From positions 1 through 24,165 of the IMG/VR virus record IMGVR_UViG_3300027754_000435: a stretch of DNA of 24,165 nt, one strand, 5' to 3'. Below the pieces are notes generated by a model, which made no database searches, was not told the origin of the DNA, and saw only the letters and a list, made by a program, of their open reading frames with translations. Shown here piece by piece: positions 496-17,594 of the stretch. Position 1 is the first letter of the stretch; the number at the start of each line of letters is the position of its first letter. The position numbers were made by a program, and so were the translations under genes. Source of the DNA: a virus.

Positions 496-3400
496 ATGGC
501 TAGAATTAAAAAATATGGAGTAACGTACAACCAACCATTGAGTTCATATGGTACGTTCATATTAGACACTGAACCAAATTCAAAATACTTTAAAATAACA
601 GAATTCAAAGATACTTTTACTGGAGGTAAAAATGGATTCTTAATAGAAGGTTCTCAGCATTTAATGCAGAATACTGAAATAAAAATTCAAGTATTAGATG
701 TTGAAGGTAATCCTCTGTACGTTGAATATGGTAATGGTATACCTGAATATTATGAGGGTACTTCTAAAATAGCTGCAGTTTATGTATATGAAGATACTCC
801 TATTGGTGAAGCAACTATTACAATATTAGGCGAACTAAAAACATATTTAGATGATGGTGGAGTAATATTAGATATACCAGATGAATGGAAAGGTAATTAT
901 AATGTAAAGTGGAACAAAACATTTAAAATTAATAGATTAATATCTAATGAAGATAAAGTAAGATTTTATAAAAGACCTAAAGTATCAATAACTGAAATCG
1001 TAAAACCTTTATTTTCAACTACATTTGCTAATGTAACTAAAAAAGGATTTGTAAAAGGTACACCAATTGTTCCTATCGAAGCAACTTCTATATCTGATTT
1101 TAAATTACCAACTTCATATAAATTAACAACAACGGATAATACTGCATGGACTGGTTCTATGATAGGTAGCGAAATTGAATTAACTGATATAGGATATACA
1201 GCAACAATATCAGATGTTTTAAATAAAAATGAAATACTTGTAACGCAACCATATTCTCAAAATGGATTGGTTTCATCATTTTCAAATCAAAGATATACAT
1301 CTTCTTTTAATTATATAGAAGGTGTTTCTAATATAGCAACTGCTTTAACTGGTTCTTTTGCAAAAATTCAATTAACTGATTTAACTACATTTGTGGGTGA
1401 TTGTGCTAGAGTTAAAATATTTAGAAAATCACAATCACAAATTGGAGATTATCAATTTGTTCAGGAAGTAAAATTAGAAACAAATGAATTATTAATTGAT
1501 TTAGAATCACAAACAACTAATCAAGATTACTATGGATTATTTACTCAAGATGTAATAAAAAATTATTGGGTAACTTCATCAAATTCACTAACTGCTACAT
1601 TTAATCAAAATTATTTATACGATTCTGTAAAGTTAGATAGTAGTACATCTCGTTATTTCTTCACATCAAAATCATTGGATGTAACAGAAGGAAAAGAATA
1701 TACTTTAAATTTTAATGTAAGACTTGGTAATAATACATCATCAAATAATTATATTAGAGCATTTTTAAGTGGTTCTAAACAATCTACAATTGGTGGTATT
1801 ACTCAAACAATTCAAGTAGAGCAGGATATTACTAATATAGTTTCTTCTAATTCATTACTACAAAAAACAACATCAATTGATAATATACAAGCCGAACAAA
1901 TTGAAAATGTAAGATTGTATTTTGAAGTAGTTGGTAGTGGTTGGTATATATCAAATATAAGTTTTACATCAGCACAAGAAACATCATTTTCGCCTGATGA
2001 AATTTCATTTATACAAACAGTTCCAAGAAGTTTACCGGTTGAAACATTTGATTATCGTTTTGAGTTTTATGATATAAATAATAATTACATTCCTGTTTTA
2101 GTAGAACAAAATAAAACTTTTAATGGGGGTAATATTCAAAATTTACAAAAAAGTTTAGTATTCAGTCCAAGAAGCTTAACATTCCAATTTGATTCTGGTT
2201 CTAGTCCAATACCACCAACTGTAGTTGGATTTGCTGTTACTAAAAATTTATTAACTGGTTCGGTAACATATACATCACAATCTTATGATTTTGATGGTAA
2301 TGAATTATTTGCAGCTGATTATGTTGGATATATAACAAATGGTGGCGGATATCCTGGCTTACTTAATGACTTGAAAACCGATTCACCAAGTATGACTGTT
2401 CAACATTTTACTGGTTCTCGAGAAAATAAATTAGTTCAAATTGTAAAAATAAAAGGTGAGTGTGAGGGATATGAAGATACGGTTATATTTACAAAAGTAT
2501 TAGATGGGTTTGGTGGAGTTAATCATTTGATTAGACCTTATAGAGGAACTCAAATCAGAAATAGTAGTACTCAAAGTTTAGAAATACAAGCAATTCGTGT
2601 TGATGGTGTAAATGATATTGAGCTAAGTAGTACTACTCAACCCGGTAAAGGATGGCCATCAATCCAATTACATATATTACATACAGCATCTGCAAATTAT
2701 TCTATTCCTGAAAAGTTTATAAATCTTTATGAAGCTTCATCAAGCAAATATATAAAAGGTTTAACATCAGGTTCTTTGGGAAGTACGGAGATAAATTATA
2801 ATGCATCATTTAATAGAGATTCTATTGATACAAGAAGAACAATATATTTGATGTCATCTGCATCTGCAGCATCTGGGCCGGCATTTCTAACCTCTGGGTC
2901 TGTATTAGCATCAATTATATTGGAAGATTTGCAAGATGGATTAGATACTGGTGTAATTGAATATAATACTGATGTATATAATATTAATTTTAGAAATGGT
3001 AATGTATTTACTCCATCATTTACATTTGCAACCGCATCATTTACTATAAGAGGAACTAATGGTGAATTGGTAACATCATCATTTCAAGTATATCCATCAA
3101 TGTCATTAAATAATGATTTTACTCCTGAATATTGGATGTATTATACTACACAAAGTTGTCATACTGCTTCAATAGCTGTAACGGCAATTGATGAAAATAA
3201 AAATGTAGTAAATGCTGGAGCAAAGAACGGATTGGGATTAGCCAACAAACAAAGTAAGAAATTAACAATAACATTTACATATACTGAACCATATACATTA
3301 TCTCAGACAAGTATAGATAAAACATTTACAATTGTGCCTGATGGTAAGCCCGGCGATGAAAGTATTGTATTTGAAATGAATCCTTTGAGTGTAAATTTAA

Positions 3401-6400
3401 AAGCAAATTCAAAAGGTGAAGTAGCTAGTTATCAATCATCTATTACTGATATAAGACTTAAGCAAGGTTCTAGATATCTATCTTTTACCGGAAGTATTTC
3501 ACAATCGGGAACATTTTATATTGCACAAGAATCAATAATATCATCTAGCATAACTGGAGGACTTATATATTTTGATAAAAATTATACATCCTCTATGATT
3601 GTTAGTGCTTCATCTGGATTGTGTGCATTAAGTGGAAGTATAATATATCCATTAGTTATCCATCCATATTATACATCATCTATATACACTCAAAGTATAG
3701 CTCAATTATATACAAAGACATTAGATGGACCACCTCCAATAGAAGTAATAATATCACCAGCCTCAGTTAATTTAACGGCAGATGAAGTTGGATATATATC
3801 AAATTATTCTGCAGCTAATACAACTATAAGAGTAAAAGAAGGTTCTGACTTTCTTACTTTTGTAACTAAATCATTTGCTTCTGGTGATGCTGGTAAAGGT
3901 ACATTTAGTATATTATATGGTGGCGCTGTAACTTCATCAAATATCGTAGTACAAAATGTAGCATCATCATCAGCAACTACAGCTACCGTTAAATTTCATA
4001 GATTTGATTATCCATATGTTTCGGCAAGTGCTTTATACAACATTCAAATTTATCCATATTCATTAGGACCAGGTCATCAATACACATCATCTATTGTAGA
4101 AAGAACTCAAACATTTACAAAAAATGTATCACCATCTAATTCTCGTAATGTAAATTTATCAGCAACTTCAACTACTGTAAACTTTGATGGTGATGGTGTT
4201 ATAACATCTCCATTAGATCCTGTTGTATTAACCGCAACTGCAACAAATACAACTGGAGCAGTTTGGTATCAATTTTTTAAAGATGATACCGAATATACAT
4301 CAATTCAATCTGATAACTTTGTTGAAATTGGCGGAGGTGATGCTGTATCCCCTGGCGAAACCGCAACATGGGCTGTTAAAATTAGAGATGGTAATAATTC
4401 ACCATCTGCATTAGTAAGAGCACAAGCAGCTGTATCAATTGCTGGTATAAAAGAAGGAGCAACCTCTTATAATGTTGTATTAACAAACGAAAATTCATCA
4501 TTGGTTTATAAAGTATCTGGAGAATTTGGATTTGATGGTAGTGGTACTGAAATACGAGCAACTAAGGGAGATGTTCCATTGATACATAAAACAGCAGTTG
4601 CTCAAGGTGGACCTGGATTTAGTCCAAAAACAACTGACCAATTTGGAAATGATATTGGTTCAATAGGAGAATATCAAGTTACAATAGCAAGCTTTTCAGA
4701 TACATTTTTAACATTGGGTAGTGTTTTAGGAGTGGGTGATAGTGTACCAACTGTTGCCGATGTTGCTAAAATAGGAAATATAACTGGTTGGACTTCTCCC
4801 GAAACAAACTCAACTGCAACAATTGTGTATCAAGTTGATATAGAAAATGGTAGAGCTGTATTTTTTAAAACACAATCAATATCTATTCAATATGAAGGAA
4901 ATACTGGTCCCGGCGTTGTAATGAGAGGACAGTGGAATGAATTTACAGACTATATAGGTTCTGTTGAAACTGTAAACTATCGTAGAGATGCAGTAATTTA
5001 TCCTGACCCATCTGGAAGTAGCGGTGAAACTCATTACTTTGCATCAGTTAGTGGAAGTGGACCTAATACAGGTGGCCCAGAAATTCCACCGGCAATAGGT
5101 ACTGATGATGAAAATTGGATTTATTTAGGACAGCAAGATTTCTTTGTGGCAGCTAAGATTGCAATATTTGAAGAATCATTTGTAAAAAATACAATTAATG
5201 TTGGTAATAATCCCGGTAGTTCATTTGCAAATATAGTATTAGCTGGAGGTAGACAAGACCCGTATATGGCAATAGGTCAAACTGGTACAAGTGGAGCAAG
5301 TGGCGTACAAACTGGAACGGGAGTTATTGGATATAATAAGCCGGGTATTTTTCTTGGAATGTATCAAGGTAGTACATCTGGTGGAGGAGCTGGTACTACT
5401 GGTAGATTTTCTATAAATAATGCTGATAGTACAAAAGCATTAACATGGGATGGTAATATATTAACAATTAAAGGTTCTATTAGACAAACATCAGCTGGAG
5501 TTCCTGAAGGTAGAGTATTGGGTGCGTGGGTAAGTGGGTATGATTATGAAATCAATGATATTGTAAGTGCAAATGGTAGAAGTTGGCACGCAACGGCAGC
5601 TCATACGTCTGGAGCATCTACTGAACCATATGTTGGTGCATCATATGCATCATATTGGGCATTAGCAGCAGATGCTGGTTCATCCGGAACAGCAGGTAGT
5701 GGTGGAACTGCTGGTACAGCAGGAACGGCAGGTGGTCCGGGTCCTGGTGTTGTTTATAGAGGACCATACGATGCTACTAAAGTATATTTCAAAACAGCTA
5801 CAAGAACCGATGCGGTAGCATATAGTTCTGGTGGTAGTAATTATTGGTTGACTAATAATAGTGCAATAAATAATTCATCTGGTTCGGTTTGGGGAGCTCC
5901 TTCTTCCGGAAATGCAAATTGGACATCATTTGGAGCGGAGTTTAGTTCGATAGCAACTGGTACAATTATATCAGAACAATCATATGTTCAAAATACTTTG
6001 AATGTTGGTACAAATGTAGCAGGTAGCGAAGCTAATATAGCAATTGTTGGAGGAAGCCCAAATCCATACATATCGTTAGGACAACCATTGCAAGGTTATA
6101 ATAGACCTGGTATATTTTTAGGAAATTCGTCTGGTGATTATAGAATGTCTATGAGTGGGTCTGGTGGATTTTTTAAATGGAATGGTAGTAGTTTGGAATT
6201 GAGTGGAAATATTACAGCAACGGCTGGTACAATTGGTAATTGGACTATTTTAGGTGGTTTATTAAAATCAGCAAATTCAAATATACAATTTGATGGTACT
6301 AACGAATCAATACAAGTATTTGATACTGGGGGTGCACTAAGATTTAACGCAAGTACGGAATTAACATTACCGACTATTTCTGCGGGTGGAGCAACTACAA

Positions 6401-7923
6401 TATATCTACCAGCATTTACACTAAATAAAAGTACTACGGATGGTGGTGGGGATGCAAGTGGAACTTTACAAACTGAATTTGCAGAAACAACATTTACAAC
6501 AACTGTAGGTGGTAAACATATTTTTAAATCAACACTAAACCCAGCATCAGCATATACTAACTATGTAGAAGGGTATGGTAGTGGCTATGCTTTGTTATAT
6601 CTATCATTGGAAGTTTGGACTGGGGCTGGGGGTACTGGTACATATATGGGTTCAAGTGGTACATACTATAACTCTGCATATGGTAGTATTGACTATGATG
6701 ATGGTAGTGGTACTGGTGGATATGGTGGATACATATCTGTAACTGGTGATACTTTAATTACTTTAGATGATGGTTCAACTATAATGGCTAAAGATATTAG
6801 TAGAGGAGATTCTATTTTATCTTGGGAATGGAGAAACAATTTTAATAAATTTATATCAACTTTTGTTACTGGAACAAAAACAAGAAAGGTTGATAAAATA
6901 TATAAAGTAAAAGCTGATGGATATGAAGTTAAAGTATCTGATTCTCACGGATTTTGGTTAGATAATAATACGGAAATTTATGTTGGTGATTTAATTGCAG
7001 GTGAAAGTAAAATTTATATACAAAGTGAAGGTTCTATAAAAAAAGTTTTAGTTGATTCTGTTGAAATTATAAATGAGGAGGTTGACGTATATACAATAGA
7101 AGTAGCTGGTACAAATAACTATATTTCAAATAATATTTTATCTCACAACTCTTATGCATCTAATGGATATTTTTTTAACGGACAAACTGGATATATACCA
7201 ACTAGGAATTATACCACACAAGCTAATTTATCAGCATCAACAACATATTATGTAACACATAGAATGCAATATCTTGTTAATTCAGATGATACCAGCGGCT
7301 CCCCTTATAATTTAAGTTCAACTGCACAATTATATTACGATATGGCTTCAAAGGCAGTAACCGTAGAGTTAGTTTCGTCTGGGGTTGTTGCAAATGGTGG
7401 AGGATTTCAAGCAGTATCATCTGATGCTAGATATATCAGATTAACAACAGATCCACTTGAATATGAAGCTGGTGGAGCTGCATCAAATGTAACGTATGGA
7501 GTTGCAGTAAAAGGAACGTTAAATATAAAAGATGGAAATATAATATCGGATACAAGTACTGCACCGGGATGGGGACCTGGTATAAAAGCATTTTGTAGAT
7601 TAATATATAATGGTGGTGGGGCTGGAACTATTGGAAATTATACAATGCAATCTGCATACAATATGGCAAGTGTATCGGTTGATGCCACATATAGATTTTA
7701 TCAACATAATTTTACAAAAGATTTAGGAAGTAGTGAATACTCAACATTGGTATCATTAACAAATACAGGATATATTTCCAATAATATTACAAACGTACCT
7801 ATGATAATAGGACAGGCATCTACATATACTAGATGGAGAGTTAAATTATTAAATAATAACGTTGATTATATTGAACAATCTACTGCAGGCGGATTTGCAG
7901 GGGTAGTTGTAATAGGAAAATAA
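496..7923 (+). CDS. Giant modular tail-fibre/adhesin-like virion protein with an internal Hint/intein domain
   Basis: This is a 2475-residue protein rich in Ser, Thr, Gly and Asn, with no signal peptide, typical of very long phage fibres or baseplate-attached adhesins. Residues 1-170 look like a compact N-terminal attachment domain. About 350-500 resembles a beta-sandwich (NYWVTSSNSL to GWYISNISF). Ig-like repeats joined by a recurrent linker such as FTKVLDG, FTIVPDGKPGD or YTKTLDGPP follow at about 670, 945, 1072 and 1208; the repeats starting near 960 and 1085 share (P)xSVNLxA. A fibre module at 1472-1662 is duplicated at 1750-1906. Between the copies lie a CBM5/12-like module (1673-1728) and a collagen-like GTAGTAG stretch (about 1729-1750). 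A Hint/mini-intein occupies 2081-2218 and interrupts the C-terminal domain. The Ser/Thr-rich surface makes it the obvious candidate substrate for the glycosyltransferases downstream. Role as fibre is inference from architecture; it is the longest gene here and opens the virion block. Confidence 0.8.
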   Translation: MARIKKYGVTYNQPLSSYGTFILDTEPNSKYFKITEFKDTFTGGKNGFLIEGSQHLMQNTEIKIQVLDVEGNPLYVEYGNGIPEYYEGTSKIAAVYVYEDTPIGEATITILGELKTYLDDGGVILDIPDEWKGNYNVKWNKTFKINRLISNEDKVRFYKRPKVSITEIVKPLFSTTFANVTKKGFVKGTPIVPIEATSISDFKLPTSYKLTTTDNTAWTGSMIGSEIELTDIGYTATISDVLNKNEILVTQPYSQNGLVSSFSNQRYTSSFNYIEGVSNIATALTGSFAKIQLTDLTTFVGDCARVKIFRKSQSQIGDYQFVQEVKLETNELLIDLESQTTNQDYYGLFTQDVIKNYWVTSSNSLTATFNQNYLYDSVKLDSSTSRYFFTSKSLDVTEGKEYTLNFNVRLGNNTSSNNYIRAFLSGSKQSTIGGITQTIQVEQDITNIVSSNSLLQKTTSIDNIQAEQIENVRLYFEVVGSGWYISNISFTSAQETSFSPDEISFIQTVPRSLPVETFDYRFEFYDINNNYIPVLVEQNKTFNGGNIQNLQKSLVFSPRSLTFQFDSGSSPIPPTVVGFAVTKNLLTGSVTYTSQSYDFDGNELFAADYVGYITNGGGYPGLLNDLKTDSPSMTVQHFTGSRENKLVQIVKIKGECEGYEDTVIFTKVLDGFGGVNHLIRPYRGTQIRNSSTQSLEIQAIRVDGVNDIELSSTTQPGKGWPSIQLHILHTASANYSIPEKFINLYEASSSKYIKGLTSGSLGSTEINYNASFNRDSIDTRRTIYLMSSASAASGPAFLTSGSVLASIILEDLQDGLDTGVIEYNTDVYNINFRNGNVFTPSFTFATASFTIRGTNGELVTSSFQVYPSMSLNNDFTPEYWMYYTTQSCHTASIAVTAIDENKNVVNAGAKNGLGLANKQSKKLTITFTYTEPYTLSQTSIDKTFTIVPDGKPGDESIVFEMNPLSVNLKANSKGEVASYQSSITDIRLKQGSRYLSFTGSISQSGTFYIAQESIISSSITGGLIYFDKNYTSSMIVSASSGLCALSGSIIYPLVIHPYYTSSIYTQSIAQLYTKTLDGPPPIEVIISPASVNLTADEVGYISNYSAANTTIRVKEGSDFLTFVTKSFASGDAGKGTFSILYGGAVTSSNIVVQNVASSSATTATVKFHRFDYPYVSASALYNIQIYPYSLGPGHQYTSSIVERTQTFTKNVSPSNSRNVNLSATSTTVNFDGDGVITSPLDPVVLTATATNTTGAVWYQFFKDDTEYTSIQSDNFVEIGGGDAVSPGETATWAVKIRDGNNSPSALVRAQAAVSIAGIKEGATSYNVVLTNENSSLVYKVSGEFGFDGSGTEIRATKGDVPLIHKTAVAQGGPGFSPKTTDQFGNDIGSIGEYQVTIASFSDTFLTLGSVLGVGDSVPTVADVAKIGNITGWTSPETNSTATIVYQVDIENGRAVFFKTQSISIQYEGNTGPGVVMRGQWNEFTDYIGSVETVNYRRDAVIYPDPSGSSGETHYFASVSGSGPNTGGPEIPPAIGTDDENWIYLGQQDFFVAAKIAIFEESFVKNTINVGNNPGSSFANIVLAGGRQDPYMAIGQTGTSGASGVQTGTGVIGYNKPGIFLGMYQGSTSGGGAGTTGRFSINNADSTKALTWDGNILTIKGSIRQTSAGVPEGRVLGAWVSGYDYEINDIVSANGRSWHATAAHTSGASTEPYVGASYASYWALAADAGSSGTAGSGGTAGTAGTAGGPGPGVVYRGPYDATKVYFKTATRTDAVAYSSGGSNYWLTNNSAINNSSGSVWGAPSSGNANWTSFGAEFSSIATGTIISEQSYVQNTLNVGTNVAGSEANIAIVGGSPNPYISLGQPLQGYNRPGIFLGNSSGDYRMSMSGSGGFFKWNGSSLELSGNITATAGTIGNWTILGGLLKSANSNIQFDGTNESIQVFDTGGALRFNASTELTLPTISAGGATTIYLPAFTLNKSTTDGGGDASGTLQTEFAETTFTTTVGGKHIFKSTLNPASAYTNYVEGYGSGYALLYLSLEVWTGAGGTGTYMGSSGTYYNSAYGSIDYDDGSGTGGYGGYISVTGDTLITLDDGSTIMAKDISRGDSILSWEWRNNFNKFISTFVTGTKTRKVDKIYKVKADGYEVKVSDSHGFWLDNNTEIYVGDLIAGESKIYIQSEGSIKKVLVDSVEIINEEVDVYTIEVAGTNNYISNNILSHNSYASNGYFFNGQTGYIPTRNYTTQANLSASTTYYVTHRMQYLVNSDDTSGSPYNLSSTAQLYYDMASKAVTVELVSSGVVANGGGFQAVSSDARYIRLTTDPLEYEAGGAASNVTYGVAVKGTLNIKDGNIISDTSTAPGWGPGIKAFCRLIYNGGGAGTIGNYTMQSAYNMASVSVDATYRFYQHNFTKDLGSSEYSTLVSLTNTGYISNNITNVPMIIGQASTYTRWRVKLLNNNVDYIEQSTAGGFAGVVVIGK
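4909..5481 (+). repeat. Fibre module copy 1 (coding repeat)
   Basis: Residues 1472-1662 of the giant protein begin PGVVMRGQW, contain a conserved core NTINVGNNPGSSFANIVLAG and KPGIFLG, and end in TWDGNILTIKGSI. The W-x-G-x-L-x-I-x-G-x-I ending is a common phage fibre motif. It is the paralogue of the module at 5743-6213, but with longer Gly/Ser insertions. Confidence 0.7.
5512..5679 (+). other. CBM5/12-like carbohydrate-binding module within the fibre gene
   Basis: Residues about 1673-1728 contain W-x-x-x-x-x-Y, then EINDIVSANGRSWHA, then a proline and YWALAADAG. This aromatic pattern matches small chitin-binding type (CBM5/12) modules that occur in phage fibres as glycan-binding units. Only the pattern is seen; ligand unknown. 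Confidence 0.55.
5743..6213 (+). repeat. Fibre module copy 2 (coding repeat)
   Basis: Residues 1750-1906 repeat copy 1: PGVVYRGPY, NTLNVGTNVAGSEANIAIVG, RPGIFLG and KWNGSSLELSGNI align with their counterparts at 1472-1662. The duplication is followed by TATAGTIGNWTI, the usual continuation of such fibre modules. Confidence 0.7.
6736..7149 (+). other. Hint domain / mini-intein (138 residues) inside the fibre protein
   Basis: Residues 2081-2218 carry the intein blocks in order. Block A is SVTGDTLITLDDGST, with Ser instead of Cys at position 1. The B-block histidine lies in VSDSHGFWL (H2151). Block F is VYTIEVAGTNNYI. Block G is ILSHN, followed by Ser as the +1 residue (S2219). There is no room for a homing endonuclease, and none of its motifs is seen. 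Excision would join GGYGGYI to SYASNGYF, which restores a continuous Gly/Tyr-rich loop. Ser at both nucleophile positions is less common than Cys but compatible with splicing. The alternative is a Hint domain that only cleaves, which would release the last 257 residues as a separate tip. Confidence 0.8.
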
Positions 7924-7935
7924 AAAAATAAAAAT

Positions 7936-8412
7936 ATGAAAGAATTAGAAAATTATATGATTGTTCATAAAAGTGAAGAAGGTAGTACCATATGGTCTGT
8001 ACCTAATTTGGAATTACCAATAGAAACTGTAGTAAACGCAACTTGTAGAAATAATGAGCATTATGTTTTTATAACATCATCTTTTGAAGATTTTGGATTT
8101 GTGGCAGCATATGATGTTGATTTTTCATTACCAAGTGGTTCTATATCACCTATTTTATTTGATGTAGAAGTTGCAAAAGAAATATTTAAAACTCATATTA
8201 GAAACGCTAGAAATGAACTATTTCCTGATTTAGATGTGCAATATATGAGAGCATTAGAATCTGGAAATCAAATAAAAGTTCAACAAATAGTTGAAAAGAA
8301 AGAAATTTTAAGAAATATAACAAATATTAATTTAGAGATGGTAACTACACTATCGGAACTGAAAGAACAATGGCCAGTTCATATATTGGGTAAATCTTTG
8401 TACGAATTTTAA
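7936..8412 (+). CDS. Fibre-associated protein, possible tail assembly chaperone
   Basis: This 158-residue protein begins 13 bases after the giant fibre gene and is probably co-transcribed with it. The N-terminal two thirds look like a small beta-rich domain. The C-terminal part (about residues 80-130) has a pattern that recurs in small proteins encoded beside phage fibres: IRNARNELFPDLDVQYMRAL followed by ESGN and then EKKEILRNIT. Those proteins are often annotated as tail fibre assembly or chaperone-like. The role is inferred from that pattern and from position; I cannot name a precise family. Confidence 0.5.
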   Translation: MKELENYMIVHKSEEGSTIWSVPNLELPIETVVNATCRNNEHYVFITSSFEDFGFVAAYDVDFSLPSGSISPILFDVEVAKEIFKTHIRNARNELFPDLDVQYMRALESGNQIKVQQIVEKKEILRNITNINLEMVTTLSELKEQWPVHILGKSLYEF

Positions 8413-8450: not shown

Positions 8451-8735
8451 ATGGCACAAAAAACTGAAAAATTAGAACAAGACGTATTAGATAAGATACT
8501 AAAAGCTCAAAATGAAGCTAATCAATTAATATTTGAATTAGGTCAAATATCATTAAGAAATAGAGAACTTGATGCTGAAATTTCTGGATTGCAAAAAATT
8601 AAGACAGATATGGAAGATAAATTTGATAATTTAAGTTTACAATTGGAAAATACATTATCTGATTTAAGAAGAAAATACCCAAATGGTGAAGTTGACTTGC
8701 AAGAAGGTGTTGTTATATTTGAAACGCCTGAATAA
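8451..8735 (+). CDS. Small coiled-coil protein, paralogue of the gene at 12142
   Basis: This is a 94-residue, highly charged, mostly helical protein with heptad-like spacing across about residues 10-75. It ends in a short beta-type tail KYPNGEVDLQEGVVIFETP. The second half aligns clearly with the product at 12142-12507: GQISLRNRELDAEISGLQ pairs with GEIYLRKKEINDELISLD, and YPNGEVDLQEG pairs with YPQGRLNLQDG. No catalytic motif is visible. Its own promoter-like element precedes it, and the glycosylation cassette follows. Function unknown; a structural linker or assembly helper is possible. Confidence 0.65.
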   Translation: MAQKTEKLEQDVLDKILKAQNEANQLIFELGQISLRNRELDAEISGLQKIKTDMEDKFDNLSLQLENTLSDLRRKYPNGEVDLQEGVVIFETPE

Positions 8736-8778: not shown

Positions 8779-10944
8779 ATGAGAAAAAAGTTACTTTATG
8801 TTGCTCCACATCTTTCTACTGGAGGACAGCCACAATACCTATATAAACAGGTAAAAGAATTCATAAAAGACTTTGATATTGAAGTTGTTGAAATAAACAA
8901 TAGTGGTGGAGATGCTTTTGTAGTTCAAAAAAATAGAATTAAATCTTTAGCAATTGTACACACGTTAGATGAAGATAAATCTAAAATTTTAGATATAATT
9001 GAAAGTTTTAGACCTGATATTATTCACTTTCAGGAGATACCTCAATTTGATTTAGCATTTAATATATTAGATGTTATTTTCAGAAAAGATAGACCTTATT
9101 TTATATTAGCAACAACACATGGTTCACTAACAACCACATCTGATATAATATACCATCCTGATAGATATGTTTTAGTATCGGAATGGAGTAGACAAAAGTT
9201 TGTAGGATTGGGAGTTGAAACTGATTTATGGGAATATCCGATTGAAGAATATGATTTTAATAAAAATGATGCACAGAATAAATTAGGATTAGACCCATCA
9301 TATAAGCATGTATTAAATGTTGGATTATTTGCTCCCGGTAAAAACCAAGCTGAAATATTTGATGTAGCTAGACAATTAGAAAAGTATAAAATAAAATTTC
9401 ATTTTGTAGGTAATCAAGCTGGAAACTTTGAAGATTATTGGTTGCCCCTTATGAGACATAAACCTAATAATTGTATTATATGGGGTGAGCGAAATGATGT
9501 AGATACTTTTTACGCAGCATGTGATATGTTTTATTTCAGTTCCAAATTAGAACTAAATCCATTATCAGTTAAAGAAGCACTTTCATATAAACTACCTTCT
9601 ATATTTAGAAAGTTACATACATACTTAGATACATATGATAATAACCCATTGGTAACTTATATTAATGATGATTTAAAAGCAACAAAAAGAATTATTTTAG
9701 ATACATTAAATCCAAAGTTTGATGAAATACCCGGATGGTTTTCTTTTTCGGAAGTATATGATGAGATGGTAACAACTACTCCATTCAATTCTAATTTTGT
9801 TGAAATTGGATCTTGGTTTGGAAAATCTACAAATTATTTAATTAAAAAAATATTAGAATCTAAAAAGAATATTAAGTTTACAACAATTGATACCTTTAAA
9901 GGTAGTGAAACATCCGAATTAGATAAAGTAATTGTTAGTGCACATAATGATGATATTTTTTATGATTTTGTTGAAAATACAATTATATCAAACAATTATG
10001 ATTCTTTTGATATTATAAAAGATTCTGCAGATAACGCATCTAAATTATTTGAAAATAATAGCATTGATTTTTTAATGATTGATGCAGACCATTCATATGA
10101 ATCTGTTAAAAATGATATAAGAACTTGGTATAATAAAATAAAGCCTGGTGGATATATTGGTGGAGATGATTATGGTGTATTTGATTCTGTAACATCTGCG
10201 GTTAATGATTATTTTTATAAACAAATAGAACCTAAATTTAGAAGTTATATTCGTAAAAAGCCAAAAATCCAAATTAAACATCTTTTAACAAAACCAAATG
10301 ATGTAAGAGAACGAATCAGTATGGCATCTATAAAACAATTAGAAAAATACGGAATGTATTATGAACCAATTGTAAATAAACCATATGAAGGATTAGCGCC
10401 TACTGAAGGATGTAGAAGACCTGAGCATGTGAGCAAAGATAATAAACCGGGTGAATTATATCCGGGAGCAGGATTGGGATGGATTACAGGTAGACACTAT
10501 GGATGTTATTTAGCACATAGAGGAGCATTAGAAACTATGAGTGATGAGTTTGATTACACATTAGTATTTGAAGCAGATGCATTTATCTATACTGGATTGG
10601 AAGAATTTGTTGAGATAGTACATAGAGCTTGTTTTATTTCTGAGAGAGATGATGTGCCATTCATTAGTTTTGCCGATAATCCATCAAGAGGAAAAGAAAA
10701 ATTAGATGATTTATTTTCAAAAACAGCTCATAATCAAGACCTTGCGCATTGTTATTTAATTCCAAATAGAGAAAAGAAATGGTGGTTGGATAGGATTGTA
10801 GATTGTGGGTGGGATGTGGGTGACCTTTGGTATAACCATGTATTTTTTCATCATCCAAGATTAAGATATACTACAAATAAAATGTATAGTAAACAAGCCG
10901 AAGGGTATTCTTTGCTAGATGAAACAATTAAAACTTGGAGTTAA
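8779..10944 (+). CDS. Three-domain glycosyltransferase (GT-B) / methyltransferase / GT25-like glycosyltransferase
   Basis: This 721-residue protein has three enzyme domains. Residues 1-310 are a GT-B fold of the GT4 type: the N-terminal strand LLYVAPHLSTGGQPQ, then VGLFAPGKNQAEIFDVA (181-197) and a donor-site motif ELNPLSVKEAL (258-268). Residues about 320-480 form a class I SAM methyltransferase of the Methyltransf_24 kind: motif I FVEIGSWFGKST (340-351), acidic strand end IDTF (370-373), and FLMIDADHSYESVKNDI with KPGGYIGGDDY (431-465). Residues about 525-721 look like a GT-A enzyme near GT25: GCYLAHRGALE (575-585) and YTLVFEADAFI (593-603), in which EAD stands where GT25 has its metal-binding EDD. 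It overlaps the next gene by one base (TAATG), so the two are translationally coupled. It probably builds or modifies a short glycan on a virion protein or on the host surface. Confidence 0.78.
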   Translation: MRKKLLYVAPHLSTGGQPQYLYKQVKEFIKDFDIEVVEINNSGGDAFVVQKNRIKSLAIVHTLDEDKSKILDIIESFRPDIIHFQEIPQFDLAFNILDVIFRKDRPYFILATTHGSLTTTSDIIYHPDRYVLVSEWSRQKFVGLGVETDLWEYPIEEYDFNKNDAQNKLGLDPSYKHVLNVGLFAPGKNQAEIFDVARQLEKYKIKFHFVGNQAGNFEDYWLPLMRHKPNNCIIWGERNDVDTFYAACDMFYFSSKLELNPLSVKEALSYKLPSIFRKLHTYLDTYDNNPLVTYINDDLKATKRIILDTLNPKFDEIPGWFSFSEVYDEMVTTTPFNSNFVEIGSWFGKSTNYLIKKILESKKNIKFTTIDTFKGSETSELDKVIVSAHNDDIFYDFVENTIISNNYDSFDIIKDSADNASKLFENNSIDFLMIDADHSYESVKNDIRTWYNKIKPGGYIGGDDYGVFDSVTSAVNDYFYKQIEPKFRSYIRKKPKIQIKHLLTKPNDVRERISMASIKQLEKYGMYYEPIVNKPYEGLAPTEGCRRPEHVSKDNKPGELYPGAGLGWITGRHYGCYLAHRGALETMSDEFDYTLVFEADAFIYTGLEEFVEIVHRACFISERDDVPFISFADNPSRGKEKLDDLFSKTAHNQDLAHCYLIPNREKKWWLDRIVDCGWDVGDLWYNHVFFHHPRLRYTTNKMYSKQAEGYSLLDETIKTWS

Positions 10945-12092
10945 TGATTTACGATAATTTAAAAAAGAATAAAAATAATATAATTGACGTACAAAATAAA
11001 ATAAATATACATTTTGTAAAAGGGCCTTATGTAGAAATAACAGGTCCCAAAAGCGCAGAATATAAAATAGAATTTATTGATAATAAAAATGGAAACATAC
11101 TTTATAAAAGTGCAATAGGTACTAATTGTTGGAGTAAGTGTAGTATTGAATATTTTGTTGATTGGAAAATAAAAATATATGAAAACGATAAACTTTGGCA
11201 TGAAACTGTATATAATGCAAAAGATAAAAGAGTTTATATAGCATTAGATTCAAAGGCATTAGGAGATTCTATTGCATGGTTTCCTTATATAGATGAGTTT
11301 AGAAAAAAGCATAAATGTAAAGTAGTTACATCTACTTTTATGAATGATATGTTTATAGAGCAGTACCCTGATATCGAATTTGTAAATCCTGGTACAAATG
11401 TAACTGATTTATATGCAATGTATTTGATGGGATTATTTTATAATGAAGATAGTTCAATAAATCATTTAAAAAGTCCAAATAATTTTAGAGAACAAACAAT
11501 GCAAAAAATGTGTTCTGATGTATTGGGTCTTGATTATGTAGAAGTTAAACCTAAATTAAAAAAAACAAATACAAATATAGATAAAAATTTAAAGCAAGTT
11601 TGTATAGGAATACATGGTACTGCACAATCTAAGTTTTGGAATAATCCACATGGATGGCAAGATGTTGTAGATTGGTTAAATAATAAAGGATATGTAGTTA
11701 AATTACTTTCAAAAGAAGGTAATGATTATATGGGAAATAAACTACCATCTGGTATTATAAGACATCCAAATGGCCCATTAGAATTAGTTATGGAGGAGAT
11801 GCAAAAATCTAAAGCATTTATTGGTATTGGGAGTGGATTAAGCTGGTTGAGTTGGGGATTAGATGTTCCGACTGTATTAATTAGTGGATTCTCATATGAT
11901 TGGGCTGAAATGAAAGATTGTATAAGAATTGCAGCACCAAAGGATAAGTGTGAAGGGTGCTTTAATAGACTTAGATTGGATGCTGGGGATTGGAATTGGT
12001 GTCCGGACCATAAAGGTACGGATAGGCAATTTGAGTGTACTAAAACAATAACTTCAGAAATGGTAATAAAAGAATTAGAAAAATTTTTATAA
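10944..12092 (+). CDS. Autotransporter strand-loop-strand O-heptosyltransferase (BAHT/TibC) family protein
   Basis: I choose the ATG at 10944, which overlaps the previous stop (TAATG) and has GGAG five bases upstream, over the TTG nine bases earlier; this gives 382 residues. The family signatures are dense. An N-terminal beta domain (VKGPYVEITG, then YKIEFIDNKNGN) precedes LGDSIAWFPY, with the presumed catalytic Asp at D108. Then come STFMNDMF, VNPGTNVTDLYAMYLMG, IGIHGTAQSKFWNNPHGW, GIGSGLSWLSWGLDVP and ISGFSYDW. The C-terminal iron-finger cysteines are all present: C336 and C339 in CEGCFN, C353 in DWNWCP, C365 in RQFECT. In Gram-negative bacteria these enzymes transfer heptose from ADP-heptose to serines of autotransporter beta-helices. 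A phage copy next to a Ser-rich giant fibre suggests O-glycosylation of the virion; donor and target are inference. Confidence 0.85.
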   Translation: MIYDNLKKNKNNIIDVQNKINIHFVKGPYVEITGPKSAEYKIEFIDNKNGNILYKSAIGTNCWSKCSIEYFVDWKIKIYENDKLWHETVYNAKDKRVYIALDSKALGDSIAWFPYIDEFRKKHKCKVVTSTFMNDMFIEQYPDIEFVNPGTNVTDLYAMYLMGLFYNEDSSINHLKSPNNFREQTMQKMCSDVLGLDYVEVKPKLKKTNTNIDKNLKQVCIGIHGTAQSKFWNNPHGWQDVVDWLNNKGYVVKLLSKEGNDYMGNKLPSGIIRHPNGPLELVMEEMQKSKAFIGIGSGLSWLSWGLDVPTVLISGFSYDWAEMKDCIRIAAPKDKCEGCFNRLRLDAGDWNWCPDHKGTDRQFECTKTITSEMVIKELEKFL

Positions 12093-12105: not shown

Positions 12106-12124
12106 ATATACTTATATATATAAA
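12106..12124 (+). promoter_or_regulatory. Candidate phage late promoter
   Basis: ATATACTTATATATATAAA lies 17 bases before the ATG at 12142. The first 15 bases are identical to the element at 15280-15298, with the same placement in a gene gap. Confidence 0.45.
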
Positions 12125-12141
12125 CAATAAAAAACACAATT

Positions 12142-12507
12142 ATGGCAGAATTAGATAAAGTCCCACAAACTCAAACTGTGGAAATAGCAACTGTAAAAAT
12201 AGATGAGGATTTATTTAAATCTATTACTGATTTAAATTCTCAAATTGGACAATACGTTGGAAGATTTGGAGAAATTTATCTTAGAAAAAAGGAAATTAAT
12301 GATGAGTTGATTTCATTGGATGATACTTTAGAGAGATTTGAAGATGAATTTAAATCAATGAATTTACAATTAAGAGAATTTATTGATGGATTAGATGAAG
12401 AATATCCACAAGGTAGATTAAATCTACAAGATGGTACAATTCAATACCAACCAGGTGCACCTACTAGAAAGCAGTTGGCTGAACAACAATCTCAACCATC
12501 TATTTAA
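12142..12507 (+). CDS. Small coiled-coil protein, paralogue of the gene at 8451
   Basis: This 121-residue acidic helical protein matches the 94-residue product at 8451 from about residue 50 to residue 107. It has a different N-terminus (MAELDKVPQTQTVEIATVKI) and an added Gln/Pro-rich tail (TRKQLAEQQSQPSI). The coiled coil spans about residues 25-90 and ends in the conserved YPQGRLNLQDG turn. It shares the start context AATTATGGCA and an upstream late-promoter-like element with its paralogue. The two copies bracket the glycosylation genes. Function unknown. Confidence 0.65.
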   Translation: MAELDKVPQTQTVEIATVKIDEDLFKSITDLNSQIGQYVGRFGEIYLRKKEINDELISLDDTLERFEDEFKSMNLQLREFIDGLDEEYPQGRLNLQDGTIQYQPGAPTRKQLAEQQSQPSI

Positions 12508-15998: not shown

Positions 15999-17594
15999 AT
16001 GAGTACAGGCATAACACAAAAGAAATCTCTAAAAGATATTATTGCAGAAGAATACAAAAAGTGTGCGGTAGACCCGATTCACTTTATGAAGAAGTATTGT
16101 ATGATTCAGCATCCGGTGAGAGGTAAGATACCTTTTCATCTATTTCCATTTCAGGAAAAGACTTTAACTCAATTTAATAGTAATCGATTTAACGTAGTCC
16201 TAAAATCACGTCAAACTGGTATCTCTACCCTATCGGCTGGATATGCACTTTGGAAAATGATATTCAATTCCGATTTTAACGTATTAGTTATTGCAACAAA
16301 GCAAGATGTTGCAAAGAACTTAGTAACAAAGGTAAGAGTAATGCATGAATTGCTTCCAAGTTGGCTTAAAGGTGGGTCTATGGAAGATAACAAACTTTCC
16401 CTTCGTTTAACAAATGGTTCTCAAATTAAGGCTATTGCTAGTTCTCCTGACGCAGGACGTTCTGAAGCATTATCACTTCTAATATTTGATGAGGCAGCTT
16501 TCATCGATGATATCGATGAGATTTGGGTGGCAGCTCAATCAACGTTATCTACGGGTGGTAGTTGTATTGCATTATCTACTCCTAATGGTGTGGGTAATTG
16601 GTTTCATCAAATTTGGTTAGGCGCGGAAGAAAGTACAAATCCATTTAATACAATTAGATTGCATTGGACAGTACATCCTGAGAGAGACCAAAAATGGAGA
16701 GATGAGCAAGAAAAACTATTAGGACCTAAAAAAGCAGCACAAGAATGTGATTGTGATTTCGTATCTTCTGGTGAAACTGTAATTGAACCAGAAACCTTAA
16801 TGTTCTATAAAGAAACATATGTAATACCACCAATTGAAAAAGGTGGGTTTGATGGAAATCTTTGGAAATGGGAGCATGCTGATTATTCTAAATCATATAT
16901 GGTAGTGGCCGATGTGGCTAGAGGAGATGGCGCCGATTATTCTACTTGCCATGTAATTGATATTGTAAACGCAACTCAAGTAGCTGAATATAAAGGTAAA
17001 GTTGATACAAAAGATTTTGGAAATTTTTTAGTAGCACTTTCAACTGAATATAATGATGCTTTACTTGTGGTAGAGAATGCCAACATTGGTTGGGCAACAA
17101 TTCAGCAAGTAATTGATAGAGATTATAAAAACTTATTCTATATGAGTAAGGATTTAAAATATATTGATGTCGAGAATCAAATGACAAATAGATATAGAGC
17201 AGAAGATAAAGGATTGGTAGCTGGATTTTCAACCACGTCTAAGACTAGACCTTTAATTATATCTAAACTAACTGATTACTTTAGAGAAAAATCAGTTATA
17301 GTTCGTTCTAATCGTTTAATAGATGAGTTATTTACATTTATCTATATGAATGGTAGAGCTGAGGCTATGAAAGGTTATAATGATGACTTGGTAATGGCTT
17401 TTTCAATTGGATTATGGGTTAGAGATACTGCACTTCGTTTAAGACAAGAAGGTATTGATTTAACTAAAAGTGCAGTTGGTAGTATTACTTCTCATACATA
17501 TAATGGTATCTATGGTGGTGGAAATACTATGGATGATGACCCTTGGAAAATGAGAGCTGGTGATGGATTTGAAGATTTAACTCAATGGTTGTAG
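15999..17594 (+). CDS. terL: Terminase large subunit (gp17-like)
   Basis: This 531-residue enzyme pumps DNA into the prohead with its ATPase domain and cuts the concatemer with its RNase H-fold nuclease. Visible ATPase motifs are the deviant Walker A KSRQTGIST (69-77), Walker B LLIFDEAAF (D164, E165) and the coupling motif ALSTPNGVG. Nuclease acidic residues are in VVADVARGDGAD (D305), LLVVENANIGW and GYNDDLVMAFSIGLW. It is somewhat shorter than T4 gp17 (610), mainly at the N-terminus. It starts one base after the upstream stop, so it depends on that transcript. Unlike T4, sheath and tube genes (18, 19) do not follow; the portal does. Confidence 0.95.
   Translation: MSTGITQKKSLKDIIAEEYKKCAVDPIHFMKKYCMIQHPVRGKIPFHLFPFQEKTLTQFNSNRFNVVLKSRQTGISTLSAGYALWKMIFNSDFNVLVIATKQDVAKNLVTKVRVMHELLPSWLKGGSMEDNKLSLRLTNGSQIKAIASSPDAGRSEALSLLIFDEAAFIDDIDEIWVAAQSTLSTGGSCIALSTPNGVGNWFHQIWLGAEESTNPFNTIRLHWTVHPERDQKWRDEQEKLLGPKKAAQECDCDFVSSGETVIEPETLMFYKETYVIPPIEKGGFDGNLWKWEHADYSKSYMVVADVARGDGADYSTCHVIDIVNATQVAEYKGKVDTKDFGNFLVALSTEYNDALLVVENANIGWATIQQVIDRDYKNLFYMSKDLKYIDVENQMTNRYRAEDKGLVAGFSTTSKTRPLIISKLTDYFREKSVIVRSNRLIDELFTFIYMNGRAEAMKGYNDDLVMAFSIGLWVRDTALRLRQEGIDLTKSAVGSITSHTYNGIYGGGNTMDDDPWKMRAGDGFEDLTQWL

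Follow-up and report, generated by a model that had tools for sequence, protein, structure and literature searches.

Why would a virus of bacteria carry an enzyme related to those that glycosylate bacterial adhesins, and what would that enzyme modify? The question is raised by a 24,165-nucleotide stretch of viral DNA (IMG/VR record IMGVR_UViG_3300027754_000435, positions 1 to 24,165; hereafter the window). It comes from a large freshwater virus of bacteria, a T4-like phage of which it represents a 24-kb fragment; the terminase is 58% identical to that of Flavobacterium phage immuto and 56% identical to that of Microcystis phage Mel-JY01. A first-pass annotation, made from the letters alone, had assigned one of its genes to the BAHT family, which includes the protein O-heptosyltransferases TibC and AAH, and had proposed as its substrate the virion fibre encoded nearby or, alternatively, host adhesins. 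We find that the gene encodes a BAHT-family enzyme and consider it probable that it belongs to a phage O-heptosylation cassette acting on collagen-like virion fibres, with the neighbouring fibre as a lesser candidate.

The open reading frame (ORF) is real and encodes 382 amino acids (aa), numbered here from the ATG at 10944, which overlaps the TAA stop codon of the upstream partner gene (TAATG). The family assignment was borne out by both profile and fold. Against the profile TIGR04414 (autotransporter strand-loop-strand O-heptosyltransferase) the protein reaches 283 bits (E=3e-84), the curated NCBIfam cut-off being 200, and a phmmer comparison with TibC (4rap) gives E=1.7e-53. The AlphaFold2 model (mean pLDDT, a per-residue confidence score, 92) has a TibC-like fold that includes the N-terminal beta-barrel; the first 21 Foldseek matches are all TibC, with template modelling (TM) scores of up to 0.87, and lipopolysaccharide (LPS) heptosyltransferases score far lower. 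The motifs LGDSIAWFPY and SGLSWLSW are present. The iron-finger residues Cys336, 339, 353 and 365 align with TibC Cys339, 342, 358 and 370 and are conserved among the aligned phage sequences, and Asp108, Thr226, Lys230 and Trp301 correspond to the catalytic Asp110 and the donor residues Thr226, Lys230 and Trp305 of TibC. The importance of all these TibC residues was established by mutation or structure (PMC4358343). Tyr262-Met263 lie roughly where TibC has its thumb, the hydrophobic beta-hairpin Phe265-Val266, with strands that are weak in the model. Profile, fold and most residues place the enzyme in a phage branch of the protein O-heptosyltransferases that include TibC and AAH, and its heptosyltransferase function is predicted from the family.

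BAHT is a core gene of a large T4-like lineage. When loci were chosen by terminase alone, with at least 5 kb upstream, BAHT and the partner were found in 20 of 20 (the partner is invisible where a contig begins at BAHT). An alignment scan of viral stretches showed that 578 of 599 encode a relative, among the matches listed, and the lineage appears widespread in metagenomic virus contigs. A scan of GTDB contigs with the single protein gave no match; the alignment scan of the same contigs gave 25 loci. The tree divides into two sides, each with 100/99 support: TibC and the bacterial enzymes on one, and on the other the phage enzymes together with those of contigs binned into metagenome-assembled genomes (MAGs), several of these contigs carrying phage tail genes. 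This argues for a viral branch of long standing and against recent acquisition. Four BAHT contigs (L121, L122, L126 and L127) had been assigned to MAGs of Bacteroidota, Winogradskyella, Deltaproteobacteria or Nitrosotalea; they encode proteins resembling those of phage tails or virions, and they probably represent phages or proviruses binned in error. The open-access literature searched yielded no account of a phage BAHT, which is not proof of absence.

Unlike TibC and AAH, the phage enzymes come with no autotransporter or strand-loop-strand repeats, and are instead coupled to a large partner enzyme. This partner combines a glycosyltransferase family 4 (GT4) domain, a methyltransferase and a C-terminal GT-A domain resembling family GT25. 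It lies immediately 5' of BAHT in every clade locus with room for it (101 of the 119 BAHT loci; the remaining 18 belong to distant phages, MAGs or bacteria). The top folds for the C-terminal domain are the GT25 collagen glycosyltransferases mimivirus R655 and human COLGALT1 (Foldseek E=1e-6 and TM 0.51 to COLGALT1). The partner differs from these enzymes in coming from a bacterial virus and in its presumed acceptor, which would be Ser/Thr or heptose rather than hydroxylysine.

The same phages encode collagen-like proteins rich in Ser and Thr. Collagen-like sequence occurs in 14 of 20 phage records. A 168-kb relative (G001) encodes a tail protein of 3994 aa with 436 Gly-X-Y triplets and 1.66 Ser/Thr per triplet, and a second of 3927 aa with 170 triplets; both genes lie upstream of the tail sheath gene, and the triplets are mostly GTS and GSS. 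Such (Gly-Thr/Ser-Ser)n proteins offer hundreds of potential acceptor sites. Mel-JY01, in which BAHT is fused to a GT4 enzyme and adjoins a gene for a 1016-aa GTS/GSS protein, has 203 collagen-like triplets, and the motif recurs in deeply diverged BAHT phages (L038, L040, L042, L121, L122, L127 and L201); in distant BAHT phages it is often less than 10 kb from the enzyme gene. The association also holds in reverse. Among IMG/VR contigs chosen solely by the repeat, as the DNA pattern (Gly-Thr-Ser/Thr)5, BAHT was found in 15 of 24, compared with 1 of 25 controls (P=1.1e-5 by Fisher's test; 18 of the controls were chosen by a G-P-x pattern and 7 by a random 16-mer). Six BAHTs compared from this test are just 33-45% identical to that of the window, so the link is not confined to one recent lineage, and repeat and enzyme are about 10 kb apart or less in four of the six records with both positions listed. 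No collagen match was found in five phages related by their terminase but absent from the BAHT-positive set. Five records (G002, G005, G012, G014 and G017) also have none; their contigs stop short of the distance at which G001 has its giant collagen genes, and they are therefore not counted against the link. In a further record (G013) there is no collagen match over about 32 kb downstream.

A virion fibre protein is most likely the substrate of BAHT: the gene is found among the structural genes, is retained along with the terminase, and tends to occur in the same phages as Ser/Thr-rich fibre repeats. To this extent the substrate proposed in the first-pass annotation stands; its choice of the adjacent fibre does not fare as well. 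The fibre gene does end 3.0 kb upstream of BAHT, and adjacency, the conserved gene order fibre - cc94 - partner - BAHT, a high Ser and Thr content and a run of GTA triplets would all fit a model in which this 2475-aa protein is the main substrate, including Ser/Thr outside its collagen-like run. That run is longer than expected by composition (8 triplets, against a longest run of 6 in 300 shuffles of the fibre). It is nevertheless short and unconserved, many full-length related fibres having no run of at least 5 triplets; the strand-loop-strand substrate repeat of autotransporters (TIGR04415) was not reported among the profile matches of the fibre and was found in 0 of 20 phage records; and the same genomes hold far richer Ser/Thr collagen-like candidates. 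We therefore regard the giant (Gly-Thr/Ser-Ser)n tail proteins as better candidates, the neighbouring fibre as possibly one, lesser, substrate at most, and its role as the main substrate as unlikely.

The cassette might instead serve to alter the host surface during infection, for instance as a block to superinfection, with surface polysaccharide, LPS or a host adhesin as its target. The GT9 relatives WaaC and WaaF work on LPS and share with BAHT the GT-B catalytic core and heptose-transfer chemistry, GT25 and GT4 domains occur in LPS synthesis too, and phages often carry surface-modifying enzymes. WaaC and WaaF, however, have neither beta-barrel nor iron finger, and the window enzyme has the fold of the protein-modifying TibC rather than that of WaaC (TM 0.87 versus about 0.45). 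Its gene shares the structural and packaging region with the terminase, Ser/Thr collagen repeats tend to accompany it, and the known adhesin substrate repeat is absent from the phage records searched, a search that host targets fall outside. A host-surface target, and with it the use on host adhesins raised earlier, accordingly appears quite unlikely.

If virion fibres are the acceptor, where would the heptose come from? In many relatives, the 380 bp 3' of BAHT contain a gene for a protein of 127-130 aa, which in NCBIfam matches HldE domain II best (heptose-1-phosphate adenylyltransferase; 90-101 bits); the gene overlaps or abuts the BAHT stop codon. The gene after it encodes a protein of 247-251 aa that matches HldE domain I best (heptose-7-phosphate kinase; 97-117 bits). 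In the relative L024 the pair, hldC and hldN, occupies 3328-3714 and 3704-4447. Both genes are present in 36 distinct loci and the domain-II-like gene alone in 7; about as many clade loci, the window included, have neither. The heptose family is the best NCBIfam match for each of these proteins where examined. Like HldE, they form a kinase-like and a nucleotidyltransferase-like half, keep the GAGD and STT motifs (STS in a few) and have a basic residue five positions before STT (STT-5): K or R in 46 of 46 proteins with an exact STT and, by inspection, K in six STS variants. They differ from HldE in being split into two small genes beside BAHT and in an internal deletion in the kinase. A summary of Tang et al. 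(2024; via PMC11461863) describes viruses that carry biosynthetic enzymes for nucleoside diphosphate (NDP)-heptose (HBEs), and states that CDP- and UDP-heptose can be made by such enzymes when STT-5 is Arg. Two additional genes of this kind lie elsewhere in relatives: a second nucleotidyltransferase akin to HldE domain II (76 bits), distant from BAHT in the 168-kb genome (L204, 9282-9764), and a nearly full-length HldE-type heptose-7-phosphate kinase (306 bits, cut-off 345) in a 735-kb phage with a BAHT-GT4 fusion (LR756501, 209213-210175). The gene CTP898 was considered as a heptose nucleotidyltransferase and dropped, its top matches being nicotinamide mononucleotide adenylyltransferases.

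In the resulting scheme, either the host pool or the phage's own split HldE-like kinase and nucleotidyltransferase would provide NDP-heptose; many relatives would make or top up the donor themselves, and the window phage, in common with about half of its relatives, would depend on what the host supplies. BAHT would transfer heptose to Ser/Thr of phage tail proteins in the infected cell, chiefly on (Gly-Thr/Ser-Ser)n stalks, and the translationally coupled partner would extend it with a further sugar and O-methylate it. The assembled tail fibres would then bear a dense glycan coat, perhaps protecting, stiffening or masking them.

Several observations weigh against this proposal. The first concerns the donor. 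Of the five donor-site residues named for TibC, Arg286 touches the adenine of ADP-heptose and is required for activity (PMC4358343). The aligned residue in the window enzyme is Val282, so that the first-pass statement that all family hallmarks are present was too strong, right as it was about the two motifs and the four cysteines, and ADP-heptose activity is uncertain. Val is found at this position across the phage clade and Thr, Ile or Leu in several other phages; Arg occurs in a few phages and in the bacterial enzymes compared, including the autotransporter-linked ones. In addition, the HldE-like proteins fall below the curated cut-offs (345 bits for TIGR02198, domain I; 181.5 for TIGR02199, domain II), and gmhA was found in none of 20 phage records, for which reason we do not claim a complete phage heptose pathway. 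The likeness of the partner to GT25 is weak: its C-terminal model has a pLDDT of 77 and TM of about 0.5 to GT25 folds, the PDB profile match to GT25 has E=0.35, the Pfam GT25 match reaches E=0.05 in one relative, and a Pfam search of the window's own domain gave no match. As for the acceptor, the reverse-test controls were unmatched for habitat and G+C and the contigs are fragments, 9 of the 24 repeat-bearing contigs lack BAHT (possibly as fragments), no collagen match was found in LR756504, a huge phage with BAHT, and the run in the neighbouring fibre is short and unconserved, as described above.

The donor-related points could also mean that a TibC-fold transferase here uses another sugar, the HldE-like and GT9-like folds having drifted to a different nucleotide sugar. 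Beyond Val282 and the missed cut-offs, the closest solved relatives of the HldE-like nucleotidyltransferase are TagD and ethanolamine-phosphate cytidylyltransferase. All three neighbouring genes, however, find their best NCBIfam match in one heptose pathway, which is unlikely by chance because they adjoin; we judge a different sugar improbable. Taken with the basic STT-5 residue, the loss of the adenine contact hints at a non-ADP donor, which may be CDP- or UDP-heptose. A fuller version of the heptosylation model can be built on this, in which the nucleotidyltransferase with basic STT-5 supplies CDP- or UDP-heptose and the BAHT that has lost the adenine contact places it on hundreds of Thr/Ser of triple-helical (Gly-Thr/Ser-Ser)n tail fibres, with the GT25-like domain then extending the glycan. 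We offer this version tentatively and consider it, taken in full, less likely than not.

Little has been described of glycosylation in phage virions; for this lineage an enzyme and its partner can now be named, together with a likely donor pathway and a concrete motif for the substrate. If heptosylation of collagen-like fibres is correct, BAHT enzymes would extend from bacterial adhesins to collagen-like viral fibres, and some viral NDP-heptose genes of open purpose would gain a role. The question can be tested on the isolated phage Mel-JY01. The features of the window are listed in Table 1.

Table 1. Features of the window (coordinates in nucleotides of the 24,165-nucleotide stretch)
Feature	Position	Strand	Remarks
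Giant tail-fibre-like protein, 2475 aa	496..7923	+	21.5% Ser+Thr, CBM5/12-like segment; possible substrate
Short collagen-like run in fibre, aa 1728-1751	5677..5748	+	8 triplets: GSS GTA GSG GTA GTA GTA GGP GPG
GTAGTAGTA	peptide of fibre		candidate acceptor
Hint/intein-like domain in C-terminal part of fibre, aa 2081-2218	6736..7149	+	SVTGDT...LSHN-S
158-aa fibre-linked protein, PHROG 20196	7936..8412	+	varies between relatives
Coiled-coil protein cc94	8451..8735	+	paralogue of cc121
721-aa partner enzyme	8779..10944	+	N-terminal GT4; Methyltransf_24/TylF-like methyltransferase (aa 341-465); C-terminal GT-A resembling GT25
Partner C-terminal GT-A domain	10180..10941	+	EADAF motif; closest folds mimivirus R655, COLGALT1
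BAHT-family O-heptosyltransferase (predicted), 382 aa	10944..12092	+	profile, fold, residues; stop codon 12090-12092
Coiled-coil protein cc121	12142..12507	+	HldE-like genes intervene between BAHT and cc121 in about half of relatives
Large terminase (T4-like)	15999..17594	+	lineage marker for unbiased survey

Rfam and tRNA scans of the window gave no match. The Hint/intein-like domain is missing from some related fibres (L147, L003) and seemingly occurs as two in tandem in another (L187). The paralogues cc94 and cc121 (29% identity, E=3e-14) stand on either side of the glycosylation cassette, as though it were placed between tandem copies. An AT-rich motif, TATATATAA, lies at 12115, ahead of cc121 at the end of the cassette, with one further copy at 434, and is a possible late promoter. 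In one relative (L037, 18135-20924) a 249-aa ORF, which may be a mobile insertion, divides the terminase gene into two parts.
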